A DNA stretch of 64,000 bases, taken from Prevotella sp. E13-27. GTDB lineage: Bacteria > Bacteroidota > Bacteroidia > Bacteroidales > Bacteroidaceae. Location: NCBI RefSeq assembly GCF_023217965.1, contig NZ_JALPSC010000002.1:620001-684000 (forward strand). The letters run 5' to 3'. Shown here piece after piece: positions 4,413-63,588 of the stretch. The stretch's first letter is position 1. The number at the start of each line of letters is the position of its first letter. The notes beneath the pieces are model-generated. The model was not told the DNA's origin. It was given only the letters and a program-made list of their open reading frames with translations, and searched no databases. The position numbers were made by a program, and so were the translations under genes.

Positions 4413-4422
4413 TTTGTCTTTA

Positions 4423-4975
4423 ATAATAACGCCCGTAGCGTTTAGTAAGATTGCTCCTAGCGTTTAGTAAGATTGCTCCTAGCGTTTAGGCCAAACGCAT
4501 TCTGATTTATAATTATACTCACAATTGGCACTTGTTGTTGCCAAAATCTGCAACGAAACGTGCCATTTTCCGCACATTTCCATCAAAATAAGTCAATAAG
4601 CTGAATTTCTGCGTCACAGGTATAATGCGCTAAGTGAGTGGAAATCATCAAAAAACGAAGGGAAAAAAGTCTTTTGAGGCCTATTAGAGCAGTAATTTAA
4701 CATTCTGTGCCCTTGTCAAGGTTAGGCATTTGGGGTGATGTTGACTTCATGATATCGTATATCATATTGATAATCAATTGCTTACATTAATATTGTTATG
4801 ACTGGGCGTTTCGTGTTTCAGCGTTTCAGTAGGGGTAATGAGGGGTGTATAAACTCTTATTATATATATAACTACTTTATTATTAGATAGTTATGAATTT
4901 TTGAAGAGAGAATGTAATGCCCTTTCTCAGGTGAAACGGCTGAAACGCTGAAACGCTGAAACGCTTCAGCCTGTT
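4423..4975 (+). repeat. Non-coding repeat element A (~550 nt) with terminal palindrome
   Basis: Fills most of the gap between ilvN and the convergent mutase gene, and has no credible ORF. From left: two full and one partial copy of a 22-nt unit (AGCGTTTAGTAAGATTGCTC); about 200 nt that align base by base with element B at 62950-63487; a divergent middle; then an inverted pair, 4806-4829 and 4940-4964, made of 8-nt TGAAACGC-type units around an AT-rich core (TATATATATA near 4860). It ends with CAGCCTGTT, matched by CAGACTGTT in B. The right flank also has a 7-bp GGCTGAA/TTCAGCC hairpin. Confidence 0.8.
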
Positions 4976-5025
4976 GAAATAACTCTTCCTCTATAATGCC
5001 ATCAAGTGCCCACGTGACACAAACG

Positions 5026-9552: not shown

Positions 9553-12129
9553 TTATTGTTCGTTATCGGTTGTCTCTGTTTCATTTACAGCACCCTCGGC
9601 AAGTGGAGCTTCCTGATCCACTACCTCTGCCTGCTCAATGTCTTCTTCCTCCTCGGTAGAGTGAAGCACCTTGCATACAGATGCGATGGTGTCGTTCTTC
9701 TTAGCGAGGTTGATGAGACGCACGCCCTGAGTAGCACGACCCATGACGCGAACATCGGCCACACTCATGCGGATAAGGATGCCGCTCTTGTTAATAATCA
9801 TAAGGTCGTTCTCGTCGGTCACAACCTTGATGGCTACCAATCGGCCTGTCTTCTCAGTAATGGCGAGAGTCTTAACACCCTTGGTGCCACGTGCTGTCTT
9901 GCGGTAGTCCTCAATGTCGGTGCGCTTGCCGTAGCCGTTCTCAGAAACCACCATGATTGTCTCAGTCTGAGGATCGTTGACGCATACCATACCTACAACC
10001 TCGTCGTCGCCACCATCTACACGCATACCAATGACACCTGTAGAAACACGTCCCATGGTACGAATCTGGTCTTCGTTGAAGCGAACGGCACGTCCGTTGC
10101 GGTTGGCAAGCAGCAGCTCGTTGCTACCATTGGTGAGGCGAACGCCTACTACCTCGTCGCCCTCATTGATGTTGATGGCGATGACGCCTGCCGCACGTAC
10201 ATTCTTATACTGGTTCAGACAAGTCTTCTTCACGATACCCTGCTTGGTAGCGAATACCACGTAGTGGGAGTTGAGGAACTCTTCGTCGTTGAAGTTCTTA
10301 ATGCGCAGAACGGCGTTGATGGCGTCGTCGGGCTCAATGTTCAGCATGTTCTGGATAGCACGACCCTTAGAGTTCTTGTCACCTTCAGGAATCTCGTAGC
10401 ACTTCTGCCAGTAGCAGCGACCCTTCTGAGTGAAGAAAAGCAGCGTGTTGTGCATAGTAGCAGGATAGATGTATTCGGTGAAGTCGTTGTCACGATGACG
10501 GGCAGCCTTTGCACCAACACCGCCACGTGCCTGCTCGTGGAACTCGCTGAGCGGAGTACGCTTGATGTAACCCATGTGGCTTATGGTGATAACAACGGGA
10601 TCATCAGGATAGAAGTCCTCAGCATTGAACTCGTGGTCGAACGGTATGATCTCGGTCTTGCGCTCGTCGCCATACTTCTCCTTAACCTCATTGAGATCAT
10701 CCTTCATTACCTGCTTGCAGCGCTCTGGGTTGTTGAGAATCTCTTCCAGGTCAGCAATGAGCTTCATCAGGTCGTCGTACTCCTGATGCAGCTGGTCAAC
10801 ACGCAGACCTGTCAGCTGACTGAGACGCATATCTACGATAGCCTTTGACTGTGGCTCATCGAGATTGAAGCGTGCCTCAAGGTTACGCTGAGCGTCGGTA
10901 GGAGTCTTACTGTTGCGGATGATGTGAACCACCTCGTCGATGTTGTTCACTGCGATGATCAATCCTTCCAGAATGTGAGCACGCTCCTGAGCTTTCTTTA
11001 GGTCGTACTTAGTGCGGCGGATGGTCACCTCATGACGATGCTCAATGAAGTAGCGTATGCAGTCGCGAAGCGAGAGAAGCTTCGGACGCATCTTTCCGTG
11101 TGTTCCTGGAATAGGAACAAGGGCAATGTTATTAACTGAGAATGAGCTCTGTAGAGCTGTCATCTTAAAGAGCTTATTCAAGATGATATTGGCATTGGCA
11201 TCGCGCTTAACATCAACCACGATACGCATGCCCTGACGGCCAGACTCATCGTTTACATTTGATATGCCCTCAATCTTGTGCTGGGTAGCAAGGTCAGCAA
11301 TGTAAGCCACAAGGTCTGCCTTGTTTACGCCATAGGGTATCTCGGTCACAACAATCTTATCGTGCTGTTCGCCAGCCTCAATCTCTGCCTTGGCACGCAT
11401 GACAATGCGACCGCGACCTGTCTCATAGGCATCCTTAACACCCTGAAGACCATAAATGTAGGCACCTGTTGGGAAGTCAGGACCTGGGATATATTGCATC
11501 AGCCCCTCGGTGTCGATGTCTGGGTTGTCAATAAAGGCACAGCAGCCGTCGATGACCTCCGAGAGGTTGTGAGTAGGCATGTTGGTAGCCATACCCACAG
11601 CGATACCATTGCCACCATTGACCAGCAGGTTAGGTACCTTGGTAGGCATAACGCTTGGCTCGACAAGGGTATTGTCGAAGTTTGGGTCCATATCTACAGT
11701 ATCCTTGTCAAGGTCGTCCATGATGTGCTCGCCCATCTTTGATAGACGGCACTCCGTGTAACGCATGGCAGCAGGCGAGTCGCCGTCTACGGAGCCGAAG
11801 TTACCCTGTCCGTCGACAAGTGTGTAGCGCATGTTCCACTCTTGACCCATGCGAACAAGGGCGCCATATACTGAAGAGTCGCCGTGGGGGTGGTACTTAC
11901 CGAGCACCTCACCTACGACACGTGCACACTTCTTGTGGGGCTTGTCGCTGGTATTTCCAATGCCCATCATACCGTAGAGAATACGGCGATGAACAGGCTT
12001 AAATCCATCACGAACATCGGGAAGGGCACGAGCCACAATGACTGACATTGAATAGTCAATGTAGGAAGACTTCATCTCCTCCTCGATGTTAATCTTTAAA
12101 ATTCTGTCGTTGTCAAACGTCTGATCCAT
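9553..12129 (-). CDS. gyrA: DNA gyrase subunit A
   Basis: Type II topoisomerase subunit that cleaves and rejoins DNA during negative supercoiling. 858 residues: winged-helix/tower domain with RALPDVRDGFKPVHRRILYGM and catalytic Tyr124 in AAMRYTE, coiled-coil gate, then the C-terminal beta-pinwheel containing the GyrA-box-like QARGGVGAKAARH, and an acidic tail. The quinolone-resistance region reads YHPHGDSSVYGALVRM: Ser85 is at the E. coli Ser83 position and Gly89 at the Asp87 position. TAATTTTG at 12285-12292 (minus) is a possible -7 box without a good -33 partner. Followed at 25 nt by the TPR genes. Confidence 0.98.
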   Translation of the reverse strand: MDQTFDNDRILKINIEEEMKSSYIDYSMSVIVARALPDVRDGFKPVHRRILYGMMGIGNTSDKPHKKCARVVGEVLGKYHPHGDSSVYGALVRMGQEWNMRYTLVDGQGNFGSVDGDSPAAMRYTECRLSKMGEHIMDDLDKDTVDMDPNFDNTLVEPSVMPTKVPNLLVNGGNGIAVGMATNMPTHNLSEVIDGCCAFIDNPDIDTEGLMQYIPGPDFPTGAYIYGLQGVKDAYETGRGRIVMRAKAEIEAGEQHDKIVVTEIPYGVNKADLVAYIADLATQHKIEGISNVNDESGRQGMRIVVDVKRDANANIILNKLFKMTALQSSFSVNNIALVPIPGTHGKMRPKLLSLRDCIRYFIEHRHEVTIRRTKYDLKKAQERAHILEGLIIAVNNIDEVVHIIRNSKTPTDAQRNLEARFNLDEPQSKAIVDMRLSQLTGLRVDQLHQEYDDLMKLIADLEEILNNPERCKQVMKDDLNEVKEKYGDERKTEIIPFDHEFNAEDFYPDDPVVITISHMGYIKRTPLSEFHEQARGGVGAKAARHRDNDFTEYIYPATMHNTLLFFTQKGRCYWQKCYEIPEGDKNSKGRAIQNMLNIEPDDAINAVLRIKNFNDEEFLNSHYVVFATKQGIVKKTCLNQYKNVRAAGVIAININEGDEVVGVRLTNGSNELLLANRNGRAVRFNEDQIRTMGRVSTGVIGMRVDGGDDEVVGMVCVNDPQTETIMVVSENGYGKRTDIEDYRKTARGTKGVKTLAITEKTGRLVAIKVVTDENDLMIINKSGILIRMSVADVRVMGRATQGVRLINLAKKNDTIASVCKVLHSTEEEEDIEQAEVVDQEAPLAEGAVNETETTDNEQ

Positions 12130-25210: not shown

Positions 25211-25362
25211 AGTTTTTAATAGTTTAAAGGTTTAAGTTGTTTAAGTAGTTTGAGTTCTCTCGTGAGCGTTCTTCCTGATTGCTGGCGGTGTTTTTTCTAA
25301 ACGCCGCGTGCGTTCTTTCTAAACACTCTTGTGTGTCTTTGTGATGCATCCTAAACACAGTA

Positions 25363-25393: not shown

Positions 25394-25533
25394 GGATTCT
25401 TTTCATTTATCTCAAATTTATTTCAAATGTTAAAATGGGGATGTTGCCTGCTGTATTAGAGTAAAAAGTAAACCTATTCAGGAAAGTAGTCAAACTTTTC
25501 CAGACGAGCGAGTCAACTTTTTCAGTATGGGTG

Positions 25534-25712
25534 TGACGCAGTGACGCAGTTGCATTTGGGTTCGGAGAAGTGTCAAAATAAACGGTAATAATTTTTTATA
25601 TTATATATTATATAATTTATTATTATATAATATATAATATAATTTTTTTTCTTCTCTTTTAGTCGCTATCTAAATATACCAAATGCAACTGCGTCACTGC
25701 GTCACTGCGTCA
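25534..25712. repeat. Palindromic octamer locus C
   Basis: 25534-25559 (TGACGCAGTGACGCAGTTGC...) and 25679-25704 are perfect 26-nt inverted repeats, and the right arm has one more octamer (CTGCGTCA). Inside, 25596-25615 and 25623-25642 are perfect 20-nt AT-only inverted repeats around a 7-nt loop. Arm size and the 119-nt spacing match elements A and B, but the arm sequence differs. Part of the 1.2-kb gap 25211-26406, which otherwise holds the HU leader and promoter, a tiny ORF locus and a remnant. Confidence 0.85.
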
Positions 25713-31472: not shown

Positions 31473-33956
31473 ATGATATACAAAATCTATTACGAGGGCA
31501 AGCGCAAGTTTGCCCTCCCAGTAAAGAACCGCGAGGAGCTGATGGCGCTGCGTAACTCGAAGGCGAACGTTGACACGCTGGCAAAGGTGCGACAGGGTGA
31601 CGCATCGGCCAAGCCTGGCTTGTTGCAGCTGGCATACAATATAGGACATGTAGAGGGTGCCCTGGCTGGCTGTAAGAGCATAGGCAGCTACTTCTTCCAC
31701 GATGTGGACTGCTATGGAAGTGAACATTCGCAACAGACCAAAGAGTTGATCCTGAGCAAAAAGGATGAGATAGGTCTGAAGATGCTGGAACGAAGCGCCA
31801 GTGGCGGTTGGCACTTGGTGTGCGAGCGACACAGGGGCACAACGATACTGGAGAATCAGGTGCGCGTGGCAACGATTCTGCAACTGGAGATGGACACCTC
31901 GGCGAAGGACTTGCAGAGGGTGGTGTTCTCGACCAGCGGCAGCGAGGAAGACCTGCCTTATCTGGATGATTGTCTCTTTGAAGAGCCCATGACGGCTGAA
32001 GAGTGCGAGAAAGAGTTTAACATGCTGAAGGTGCGCGTGATGCGAGGACAGGAGCAGGTGCCTGCTGGAGCGAAGAAAGCAAATAAGCACTATAAGCCGT
32101 GGGAGGAAGATGAGATGTCTGATGTGAGAAGTAAGAAGGCGCTTGCTACTAGAGGGACACAAGAAGATGTGAAGTTTGAACCTTCTGGAAATACCTATCC
32201 GGACAACTATCACGGCATTCCGTTTACTGCTATATTAAAGAAGTACTGGGAGGTGAACAACAGCGGTTATGAGCCTACGCAAGGTGATAGGGACACGTTG
32301 ACCTATCAGTTGGCGTGCGACTTGAGGCATATCTGCGGCAGAAATTTCGAGTGGCTCGACCAGGTGATTCCATGCTACGACGGTTTTCCATTGGAAGAGA
32401 AGCGGGCGAAGATAAAGAGCGCACTGAGTTCGGAGTTCAACGGATTTCCAGCGCGTCTGCGCAACACCCTCAATGCGCTGGATATTAAGTGCACAGTAGG
32501 GTCGGTTCTTGGCAAGCCAAGCGAGCAAGCTCGAGCGCCGCTGTGCAATTCTGAGGGGGACATGAATCAGCGCTTGTGGGAATGGGGCGCTGAGATTGAG
32601 GAACTGAGCAAGGACTTTCCGCTATTGAAGGACATTTGCAAGGGGCTGAAGAAAAACCAATATCCTGCGGCGCTGTTCGTGGCTGGCGGACTGATGATGA
32701 CGCTGATGACACGCTGTACCTACAGGTTCTATCATCGCCCTGAGGAGCTGCGCAGGCTGAATAACTCGACGCTGATTATTGGCGACCCTGCAAGTGGTAA
32801 GAGCTTTGCAACTCGCTTGTTCAAGCTGTTGGCTTCACCTATCGTGGCTGCTGATAAAGTGGGTAAGGATGCCATAAATGCTTATCGTGAACAGATGCGC
32901 ACAAAGGGCGCTAACAAGGAGAAGCCTAAGAAGCCAAAGGTGGTGGTAAGGATTCACCCAGCGCGAACCTCTAATGCCCAGTTCATTCAGGACATGGTGA
33001 ACGCTGTAGAAGAGGTGAACGGTGAGCCGATGCAGCTGCACATGCTGACATTTGACACAGAGCTGGACAACACGCTGTCGCTTCAGAAGGGTGGTGCCTA
33101 CATAGACAAGCAGGCGCTACAGTTGAAGGCTTTCCATAACGAGGAAGATGGTCAGGCTTACTCGAATGTGGATAGCGTGTTCCAGGAGTTCTATGTGATA
33201 TGGAACTTCATCTATACAGGCACACCTATCGCTCTGAAGAAGATGGTGAACGAGCAGAACTTTGGTTCTGGTTTGGCTACTCGCCTGACGTGCATCCCTC
33301 TGCCAGCTACAAACTTCCAGATGATGAGTCGCGAGAGTACCGTTGACTATGACAGCGACAATCGCCTGAAGGAATGGGCAGAGAAGCTGGACAGGATGAA
33401 GGGTGAGCTCTCAGTTCAGAAGATTGTAGATGAACTCTACGATTGGACGGCACGAAGGATGGCTGATGCAGCAGAGAATGACTCAAAGGCTGACGAGATG
33501 CTGCTAAAGCGCTGTGCATATCATGGCCTGAATTTCGCTGCTCCATTCATCGTGATGCGCCATTGGGACAAGATGAAGCAGGACGGCCAGTACTGGTGTG
33601 GCGAGTTCGAGACAGACGAGGTGGACTGGAAGTTGGCTGAGCTGATAGTGAACATCCAGTATGCCTGTCAGCGCCACTACTTTGGAGCTATGGCAGAGGC
33701 CTATTTTGACAACAAGCTGAAGGATGCAAGCGTGAACGTGCAGCGAAGGCAGAAGACCTACGAGGCCTTCAGCCGATTGCCAGAAGAGTTTACCATCGAT
33801 GATGTGATGCGCTGCTTTGGACTGGCGCAGAACAACTCGGCTCGCGCCAGGGTGTTCCGTCTGATAAAAGATGGATTAATAGAAAAGGTGGATGAGTTTG
33901 TGGAGAACGGCACCACCAAAGCTAAGTACAAAAAGACTGGAACTGTGATGATTTGA
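31473..33956 (+). CDS. VirE_N / BT4734-like and DUF3987 ATPase
   Basis: 827 residues. N-terminal ~200 residues match the BT4734-like/VirE_N domain (IGSYFFHDVDCYG ... LERSASGGWHLVCERH), related in my judgement to primase-type folds. The middle is DUF3987 with Walker A GDPASGKS (437-444), an arginine-rich segment (KVVVRIHPARTSNAQFIQDM) and LTFDTELDN as probable Walker B region. The C-terminal ~70 residues resemble a winged helix (EFTIDDVMRCFGLAQNNSARARVFRLIKDGLIEKV). These proteins are widespread in Bacteroidales next to HU-related and UpxY genes; helicase/primase activity is inferred from domains, not known. Confidence 0.85.
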   Translation: MIYKIYYEGKRKFALPVKNREELMALRNSKANVDTLAKVRQGDASAKPGLLQLAYNIGHVEGALAGCKSIGSYFFHDVDCYGSEHSQQTKELILSKKDEIGLKMLERSASGGWHLVCERHRGTTILENQVRVATILQLEMDTSAKDLQRVVFSTSGSEEDLPYLDDCLFEEPMTAEECEKEFNMLKVRVMRGQEQVPAGAKKANKHYKPWEEDEMSDVRSKKALATRGTQEDVKFEPSGNTYPDNYHGIPFTAILKKYWEVNNSGYEPTQGDRDTLTYQLACDLRHICGRNFEWLDQVIPCYDGFPLEEKRAKIKSALSSEFNGFPARLRNTLNALDIKCTVGSVLGKPSEQARAPLCNSEGDMNQRLWEWGAEIEELSKDFPLLKDICKGLKKNQYPAALFVAGGLMMTLMTRCTYRFYHRPEELRRLNNSTLIIGDPASGKSFATRLFKLLASPIVAADKVGKDAINAYREQMRTKGANKEKPKKPKVVVRIHPARTSNAQFIQDMVNAVEEVNGEPMQLHMLTFDTELDNTLSLQKGGAYIDKQALQLKAFHNEEDGQAYSNVDSVFQEFYVIWNFIYTGTPIALKKMVNEQNFGSGLATRLTCIPLPATNFQMMSRESTVDYDSDNRLKEWAEKLDRMKGELSVQKIVDELYDWTARRMADAAENDSKADEMLLKRCAYHGLNFAAPFIVMRHWDKMKQDGQYWCGEFETDEVDWKLAELIVNIQYACQRHYFGAMAEAYFDNKLKDASVNVQRRQKTYEAFSRLPEEFTIDDVMRCFGLAQNNSARARVFRLIKDGLIEKVDEFVENGTTKAKYKKTGTVMI

Positions 33957-62891: not shown

Positions 62892-62949
62892 TTATTTCCG
62901 CTTAATGTTAGAGGGCGCATGAAAAAAGATAGAGAGACGGTAACCGTTT

Positions 62950-63487
62950 AATAAGAACGCTCGGAGCGTTTAGTAAGATTGCTTGGAGCGTTTAGACCAA
63001 ACGCTTTTGTATTTTTACTCATATTTAGCCCTTGTTGTTAGCCAAATTTGATACGAGATGTGTCATTTTGCCATATTTTTCCTTCCAAATGTGTCATGGT
63101 GTTGAAATTTTGTGTCGCAGTTGTGTGCGCAAAATGAGGGGAAAAGCATCGGAACGAGGGGTTCGTGCATGTCTTTTGACACCTGTGAGAGTCGTAATTT
63201 TACTATTTCTGTACCTTTTCCAGGCTTTGGCATCGCTGGAGAGTTGTGACTATAAATATCGTAATTCATTGATTATTAGCTTTTTAGATGAAGTGTTATG
63301 TGATTGCGGTTACAGTTACAGTAGTTACAGTTGTTTTTTGAGTGGGTGTCATTTCCTTTATATTATATATATAATATATATAACTATATATATATCAATA
63401 AGTTACAAGCGTTTGCAAATGTCTCAAAGGAGATGTACACCCCTTTTATTTTAACTGTAACTTCTGTAACTGTAACCGCAGACTGTT
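62950..63487 (+). repeat. Non-coding repeat element B (~540 nt) with terminal palindrome
   Basis: Homologue of element A in the same orientation: one full and one partial copy of the GCGTTTAGTAAGATTGCT unit, ACCAAACGC, a long similar stretch (CTTGTTGTT, GTGTCATTTT and others), then arms 63306-63330 and 63455-63479 that are 25-nt inverted repeats with one mismatch, built from GTTACA units around a TA-repeat core, and the final CAGACTGTT. The 140-codon ORF across it is low-complexity over the TA core and not credible. Fills the gap between the kinase promoter and the right-edge gene. Confidence 0.8.
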
Positions 63488-63588
63488 CTCATTCCTCTAC
63501 CAGGCCTTCTAATGCCCATAGCAGTTCGTTGACCATGCTGTTGGCATAGTTGCTGACGTGGTAGCTAGAACCTGTGTGGATGTAGGAA

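Follow-up and report, generated by a model that had tools for sequence, protein, structure and literature searches.

Replication modules in which an initiator helicase has an adjoining primase activity and reads short iterons are described, in the sections of the source that were consulted, for the Rep-primase-origin of SaPIs and the Cch/Cch2 operons of SCCmec (eLife 2020, PMC7581432; Ubeda 2007 and Mir-Sanchis 2016 as cited there). In the available part of another source, DUF3987 is a predicted replication helicase and the BT4734-like family is listed as a primase family, in mobile elements (PMC5862659). Here, we analysed two related non-coding elements, A and B, in a 64,000-nucleotide (nt) stretch of the Prevotella sp. 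E13-27 genome (the window; contig NZ_JALPSC010000002.1, positions 620,001 to 684,000). Coordinates of A and B are positions in the window, L-numbers are labels of compared loci, and G000 is the genome of the strain itself. As judged from alignments, A and B were shown to be internally deleted, decaying copies of a larger cassette and not a stand-alone element. We consider it probable (roughly 0.65) that this is a chromosomal replication cassette in which an iteron replication origin lies beside its own initiator helicase and primase.

Relationship of A and B to a larger cassette

When A was searched against its own genome, B was matched at an E value of 1.6e-27 (68% over query positions 17-476). 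There were 28 matches, including L003, L004 and others, and the best after A itself was L002 (82%, E 1.1e-78). Because of these E values, the resemblance of A and B is far beyond chance, as claimed in a preliminary description made from the window sequence. That description had placed the ends of the elements at 4975 and 63487; homology was found to continue through the remains of a small gene, giving extents of about 4421-5012 for A and about 62942-63560 for B.

An intact-looking cassette was found elsewhere in the genome, on contig C2 at about 802.0-807.4 kb (L013, L023). It contains, in order, an M15 peptidase gene, the small gene, an intergenic palindrome, a whole helicase-like gene of 440 amino acids (aa), a 344-aa CHC2 primase gene, a REP-like array (the head) and, beyond it, an HU protein gene. 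Pfam matches to Peptidase_M15_3, Zn_ribbon_DnaG and HU-HIG were obtained in this cassette and in that of Prevotella communis E15-14 (L050), and the primase gene adjoining the helicase gene carried Zn_ribbon_DnaG in the own genome, L048 and L050. In PHROGs, the peptidase was endolysin-like (2.9e-27) and the primase phage primase-like (3.6e-24). No integrase or ccr recombinase was found among the 19 proteins scanned (L023, L041, L044, L047-L050), save an IS110-type transposase (L023:3751-4821; PF01548, 6.6e-21) encoded just past the HU gene in the intact-looking cassette. Matches to the helicase at E 1e-5 or better were present in 48/151 sampled genomes of the Prevotella family, distant relatives included. 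The titles of 17 named loci read Prevotella, Prevotellaceae, Bacteroidales or Bacteroidetes, and several are presumably rumen genomes, to go by their RUG names and a sheep label.

In eight aligned own-genome copies, the order on the minus strand was small-gene end, palindrome with an AT-rich core, first helicase-like codons and head. In A, the head array occupies 4421..4499 of the plus strand with a period of 22 nt (units at 4436-4455 and 4458-4477; 36/40 matches at period 22), and its third unit ends in the palindrome AGCGTTTAGGCCAAACGC. It is followed by the decayed first ~60-85 helicase-like codons, with stops, on the minus strand (4523..4765; tblastn and alignment of copies). Sequence inspection and the iteron scan placed the left iteron arm at 4806..4829 (plus strand) and the inverted right arm at 4932..4966 (minus strand), both with the repeated word GTTTCA, around an AT-rich core at 4845..4910 (A+T 0.76 between the arms). 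The element closes at 4986..5012 with a minus-strand remnant of the small gene, from its 3' end (TGGGCACTTGATGGCATTATAGAGGAA; sequence and alignment). The corresponding parts of B are a three-unit head array (62942..63005, plus strand; pattern and period), decayed helicase-like codons, again the first ~60-85 (63015..63269, minus strand; tblastn and alignment), a left arm at 63307..63332 (plus strand) and an inverted right arm at 63453..63479 (minus strand), both with GTTACA, a core at 63358..63405 (A+T 0.75 between the arms) and the 3' end of the small gene, ..YANSMVNELLWALEGLVEE* (63489..63560, minus strand), which resembles the C-terminus of the intact copy L023:8405-8779. No tRNA was found in a search of the window DNA.

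By tblastn, the 440-aa protein matched A over aa 1-63 (E 9.1e-4; 7.8e-7 in a small database) and B over aa 1-62 (E 1.5e-14), or 1-59. The absence of a credible open reading frame noted earlier holds as regards function, but the middle of both elements is a decayed minus-strand frame. This coding origin in helicase and small gene had been missed, as had the nature of the palindrome, an iteron array with copy-specific words. The truncated helicase gene is joined to the head by the same short AT-rich junction in A, L002 and L003, and by a looser version of it in B, so that one deletion is probably shared by these four copies.

Iteron palindromes with copy-specific tags

The palindrome separates the small gene from the helicase gene and is upstream of the latter. 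Upstream regions of 66 copies were examined, 29 full and 37 partial (L096, counted as partial, is really a frame-shifted full copy); left out were the contig-edge loci L045 and L051, the duplicate L076, L022, L052 and L086 without a usable match, and the distant L021 and L098-L105. Inverted arms with at least four identical 6-mers were found in 61/66 copies and with at least five in 54/66, compared to 2/1320 and 0/1320, respectively, in dinucleotide-shuffled controls. The repeated word, called the tag, was mostly RTNHCA and was of 18 kinds in the 61 copies. Besides GTTTCA in A and GTTACA in B, the tags were ATCACA in L002 (L028), TATACA in L003 (L027), ATTACA in L023 and L004 (L030), and ATTCCA in L024 and L025. 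Iterons within one copy mostly agree, the exceptions being L058 and L059, where one iteron per arm differs in a matched way, and L049 and L060, with a mismatch between the arms at one iteron. Both A and B do have the inverted pair with an AT core reported earlier. The arms of the two elements have their architecture in common but differ in tag and in repeat spacing, which in B is mirrored (6,9 and 9,6). A strict one-arm pattern occurred at 16 places in 11/151 genomes, with no match for the control.

A structured RNA had also been proposed. An attenuator or other structured leader, in which the arms form a hairpin, would suit the position of the long inverted arms immediately before the helicase gene and their agreement within each copy. 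However, the tags also repeat in direct order inside each arm, for which pairing has no need, and spacing was mirrored in 20 of the 35 copies with exact 3+3 iterons (same-order in 5, other in 10), a further 26 copies not being exact 3+3. The arms persist in copies with a dead gene, and a search of the window against Rfam gave 0 matches at gathering score. Conservation concerns the identity and orientation of the iterons, not hairpin pairing, and we regard an RNA element as very improbable.

The same iteron data, the retention of the palindrome in dead copies and the HU-type protein in the cassette could also be expected of a protein-binding control or chromosome-organising site, the latter among the earlier suggestions, at which the DNA-binding protein of the cassette would repress or mark its own operon and solo copies would serve as decoys or in chromosome organisation. 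An AT-rich core and helicase-primase neighbours appear to fit an origin better, and we hold such a site to be unlikely.

Palindromes of similar build were observed elsewhere. The window holds a third one (25309-25328 and 25531-25712) with TGACGCAG-type iterons, two on the left and three on the right, and an 85% AT core; a single REP-like unit lies about 200 nt away and no helicase scrap was noticed. At L037:5394-5700, inverted GAAAGTAG-type repeats (3 and 4 copies) flank an AT-rich stretch that a REP-like unit adjoins. Four of the loci matched by the strict one-arm pattern, L061, L062, L069 and L070, from two genomes of one genus, have lone iteron arms (CTACCCTTCGAAAAATAACTGTAACAACTGTAACTGTAAC and variants) among unrelated AATTCATAATT repeats and possibly represent a second, one-armed element. 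In the distant relative L021, a palindrome is located at 11864-12040, upstream of another gene, and a scan of L098-L105 gave one candidate, in L102. Other inverted short repeats from the scan were ACGAAT (L021), CGAATT (L030) and CACGGA (L102).

The helicase-like protein

No family match to the 440-aa protein was found in Pfam, NCBIfam or PHROGs, and the matches in a 25-member scan were weak and scattered (best E 0.049). Relatives were absent from phage records, IMG/VR and plasmids, as were relatives of a 763-aa relative from phage records. A search of solved-structure sequences returned a single match (E 0.019), which was not believed. The protein aligns to a BT4734-like_N protein of L021 (30% over 426 columns) and, with an hhalign probability of 98.7, to a DUF3987-like protein of L022 whose own DUF3987 Pfam match is below cut-off. 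Its structure, predicted from a 25-sequence alignment, was closest to MCM helicases in Foldseek, and the SCCmec helicase Cch was among the matches (E 0.04). The stretch DSGNNKGQL around the invariant K80 resembles the MCM Walker A motif, which we take to be GDPGTAKSQL. The 433-440-aa protein is probably an MCM-type AAA+ initiator helicase.

In a partial-correlation scan of tag against residues in 25 proteins, residues 296-330 and 386-415 were favoured. Four-fold-site identity in the DNA of the helicase start was weakly raised, 0.50-0.51 at codons 21-60 compared to 0.36-0.47 elsewhere. The window also encodes, at 31473-33956, a DUF3987-like protein of 827 aa (E 3.6e-4, below the Pfam cut-off) that is distantly related to the cassette helicase.

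Origin-proximal bias of the partial copies

Further copies in related genomes had been proposed as a check on the elements, and partial copies, or miniatures, were indeed found. Among the merged partial matches of the same subfamily across the 151 genomes, 30/32 were origin-proximal and 2/32 C-terminal (crude binomial p 2e-12 against uniform fragments), and the palindrome was detected in 25 of the 30. Their right ends fell between codons 43 and 150, with 12/30 at codons 83-97 and no single sharp site. On the other side, 24/37 partial copies had the box GCCTTGTAGAGA of the small gene, with two mismatches at most, 218-263 nt before the helicase start; unrelated sequence often precedes it. Terminal inverted repeats such as those of MITEs were not found, the box having no consistent inverted partner on the right.

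Two miniatures on two contigs of one draft genome that is 79% complete (L125 and L126) were 99.2% identical over 477 nt (-237..+240), and beyond this unit they had only pieces in common, in other relative positions. Unless there is an assembly fault, this is a recent copying of the 477-nt unit alone. A repeated 18-mer near some miniatures was considered as a REP and rejected, being often near contig ends and resembling an insertion-sequence end.

Plain random decay of old cassettes, leaving remnants with neither function nor movement, would account for the stops in the helicase scrap of A and for the loss of the palindrome in L029. It would not account for 30/32 partial copies being origin-proximal, for the recently copied unit or for iteron arms that still agree in dead copies, and it is rated as quite unlikely. 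Because of the origin-side retention and the fresh 477-nt copy, origin-bearing miniatures appear, from sequence evidence, to be kept or copied beyond mere decay. The earlier suggestion of a non-autonomous mobile element therefore came close, A and B being deletion derivatives of a larger cassette.

The REP-like array and RAYT-like genes

The tandem 22-nt head unit is real (AGCGTTTAGTAAGATTGCT). It belongs to a dispersed, REP-like family of 19-nt imperfect palindromes with a 22-nt period, for which 109 matches (up to three mismatches) were obtained in the whole genome compared to 3 for a reversed-pattern control. A variant, GAGCGTTTAGAAAGAACGCA (ending ...GAACGCA), is identical at many places on G000:C1 and C2 (e.g. 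C2:293927, C2:764308) and could be part of a different repeat or of an insertion sequence.

In the alternative to be taken most seriously, although it is somewhat doubtful, A and B would be REPIN- or MITE-like elements that a RAYT/Y1 transposase mobilises through recognition of the array, the palindrome being a passenger. In addition to the dispersal and period of the array, RAYT-like genes lie in or beside miniatures and arrays at L024:7262-8434 (below the NCBIfam cut-off) and L026:7173-8087 (above the Pfam Y1_Tnp cut-off). A tandem array of 21-23 nt (at least 27/40 matches) was found in the right flank of 13/36 miniatures and in the left flank of 0/36, the own-genome copies and two G021 copies among the 36 not being independent; random windows reached this level in 46/2000 and 49/2000 cases, other periods included. 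The right-flank array sequences differ between genomes. In nine full cassettes examined, an array directly follows the primase in four, L048 (a short-unit repeat), L049, L050 and L023 (pattern only). In L043 it is located about 440 nt beyond the helicase gene, in a stretch for which no intact primase reading frame is listed, and the other four have none near the module.

On the other hand, 23/36 miniatures are without an array at this threshold, and 3/4 Y1_Tnp genes over the cut-off have no array within 1.5 kb. An iteron palindrome was present within 800 nt of 13/26 own-genome arrays compared to 3/261 control windows, the 26 coming from fetched stretches and so forming an enriched set; among these 13, L035 and L039 are weak and the L024 palindrome is of a different, AGAGGT type. 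The remaining 13/26 have no palindrome within that distance, so that arrays also stand alone, although two of them are L023, with its palindrome 2.5 kb off, and L029, which has lost it.

Proposed mechanism

Since helicase, primase and iterons are the parts of SaPI and SCCmec modules, the palindrome is read as an origin and A and B as origin-bearing miniatures. In the proposed replication cassette, the MCM-type AAA+ initiator helicase would bind the inverted iteron sets just upstream of its own gene, reading the tag particular to its cassette, and would open the AT-rich core; the neighbouring CHC2 primase would then prime, and the cassette would be copied locally. A and B would keep the cis-acting part only, the origin-like palindrome and the helicase gene start, bounded by the small-gene tail (mostly the GCCTTGTAGAGA box) on one side and the REP-like 22-nt array on the other. 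We infer that the palindrome is the origin, that the helicase reads the tags and that miniatures spread in trans; candidate means of movement are a RAYT acting on the array, as in L024 and L026, or homologous exchange between arrays.

Several observations weigh against this mechanism. The Foldseek agreement is loose (best E 3.5e-5; TM-scores in the MCM rows about 0.4 or less, query-normalised; large root-mean-square deviation), the five AlphaFold models of the 440-aa protein span pLDDT 82.0 down to 49.5, and the Walker A-like stretch is degenerate, with K-G replacing K-S/T. In contrast to the scan of tag against residues that pointed to 296-330, a nearest-neighbour test of 32 proteins did not separate segments; the L148 tag was entered in it as GATA, GTAT being the better reading of the sequence. 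The exact iteron palindrome is absent from 5/66 upstream regions. In L029 (6950-7211), the small-gene tail is joined straight to the helicase scrap and array, and A and L028 are 81% alike over helicase scrap and array, yet their palindromes do not align. No clean empty site for A was found in relatives; A lies at a break in synteny, since most of the relatives viewed have another gene, the same in each, next to the gene that precedes A. None was found for B either, 0/8 relatives viewed having its upstream neighbour beside the kinase gene. The IS110-type transposase gene beside the L023 HU gene makes movement by other means possible.

A further, tentative proposal is that these cassettes are dispersed chromosomal replicons whose fast-changing, copy-specific iteron code stops cross-firing between co-resident cassettes, and that origin-only miniatures, with REP-like arrays as an end, spread like defective-interfering genomes. 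If the replication-cassette reading is right, candidate additional origins would be present in chromosomes of the Prevotella family, each individually addressed and beside its presumed reader protein. They would provide a natural set of initiator-iteron pairs for the evolution of origin specificity, and would allow the idea of origin-only parasites of bacterial chromosomes to be tested.

Comparison with known systems

The module type is known; the searches made of open-licence papers gave no description of this cassette family, of the tags that change within it or of its miniatures, and the parts of PMC10434189 and PMC7145576 that were seen describe no such element. PINSR, a 188-bp intergenic repeat of Prevotella intermedia, is set apart, in the portion of its description available (PMC4755523), by having no terminal inverted repeats and by its limitation to the intermedia/nigrescens group. 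As with REP/REPIN sequences and their RAYT transposases (the subject of PMC2817692 and PMC3116915), the head consists of short imperfect palindromes in many copies and arrays, and RAYT-like genes are present in the genome; it differs in that the head is one end only of A and B. The cassette helicase is homologous to BT4734-like_N and DUF3987-like proteins of its own genome, whereas neither a credible Pfam match nor any NCBIfam match was obtained for the 440-aa family itself. Compared to the SaPI and SCCmec modules, so far as the portion of PMC7581432 consulted describes them, the palindrome is located upstream of the helicase gene and not, as an origin, directly downstream, an AT core is surrounded by inverted iteron sets whose tags vary from copy to copy, neither an integrase nor a ccr gene was seen among the neighbours scanned, and the host is a member of the Prevotellaceae. 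In common with them, the cassette has a predicted AAA+ initiator helicase, a primase gene beside it and iterons next to the helicase gene.
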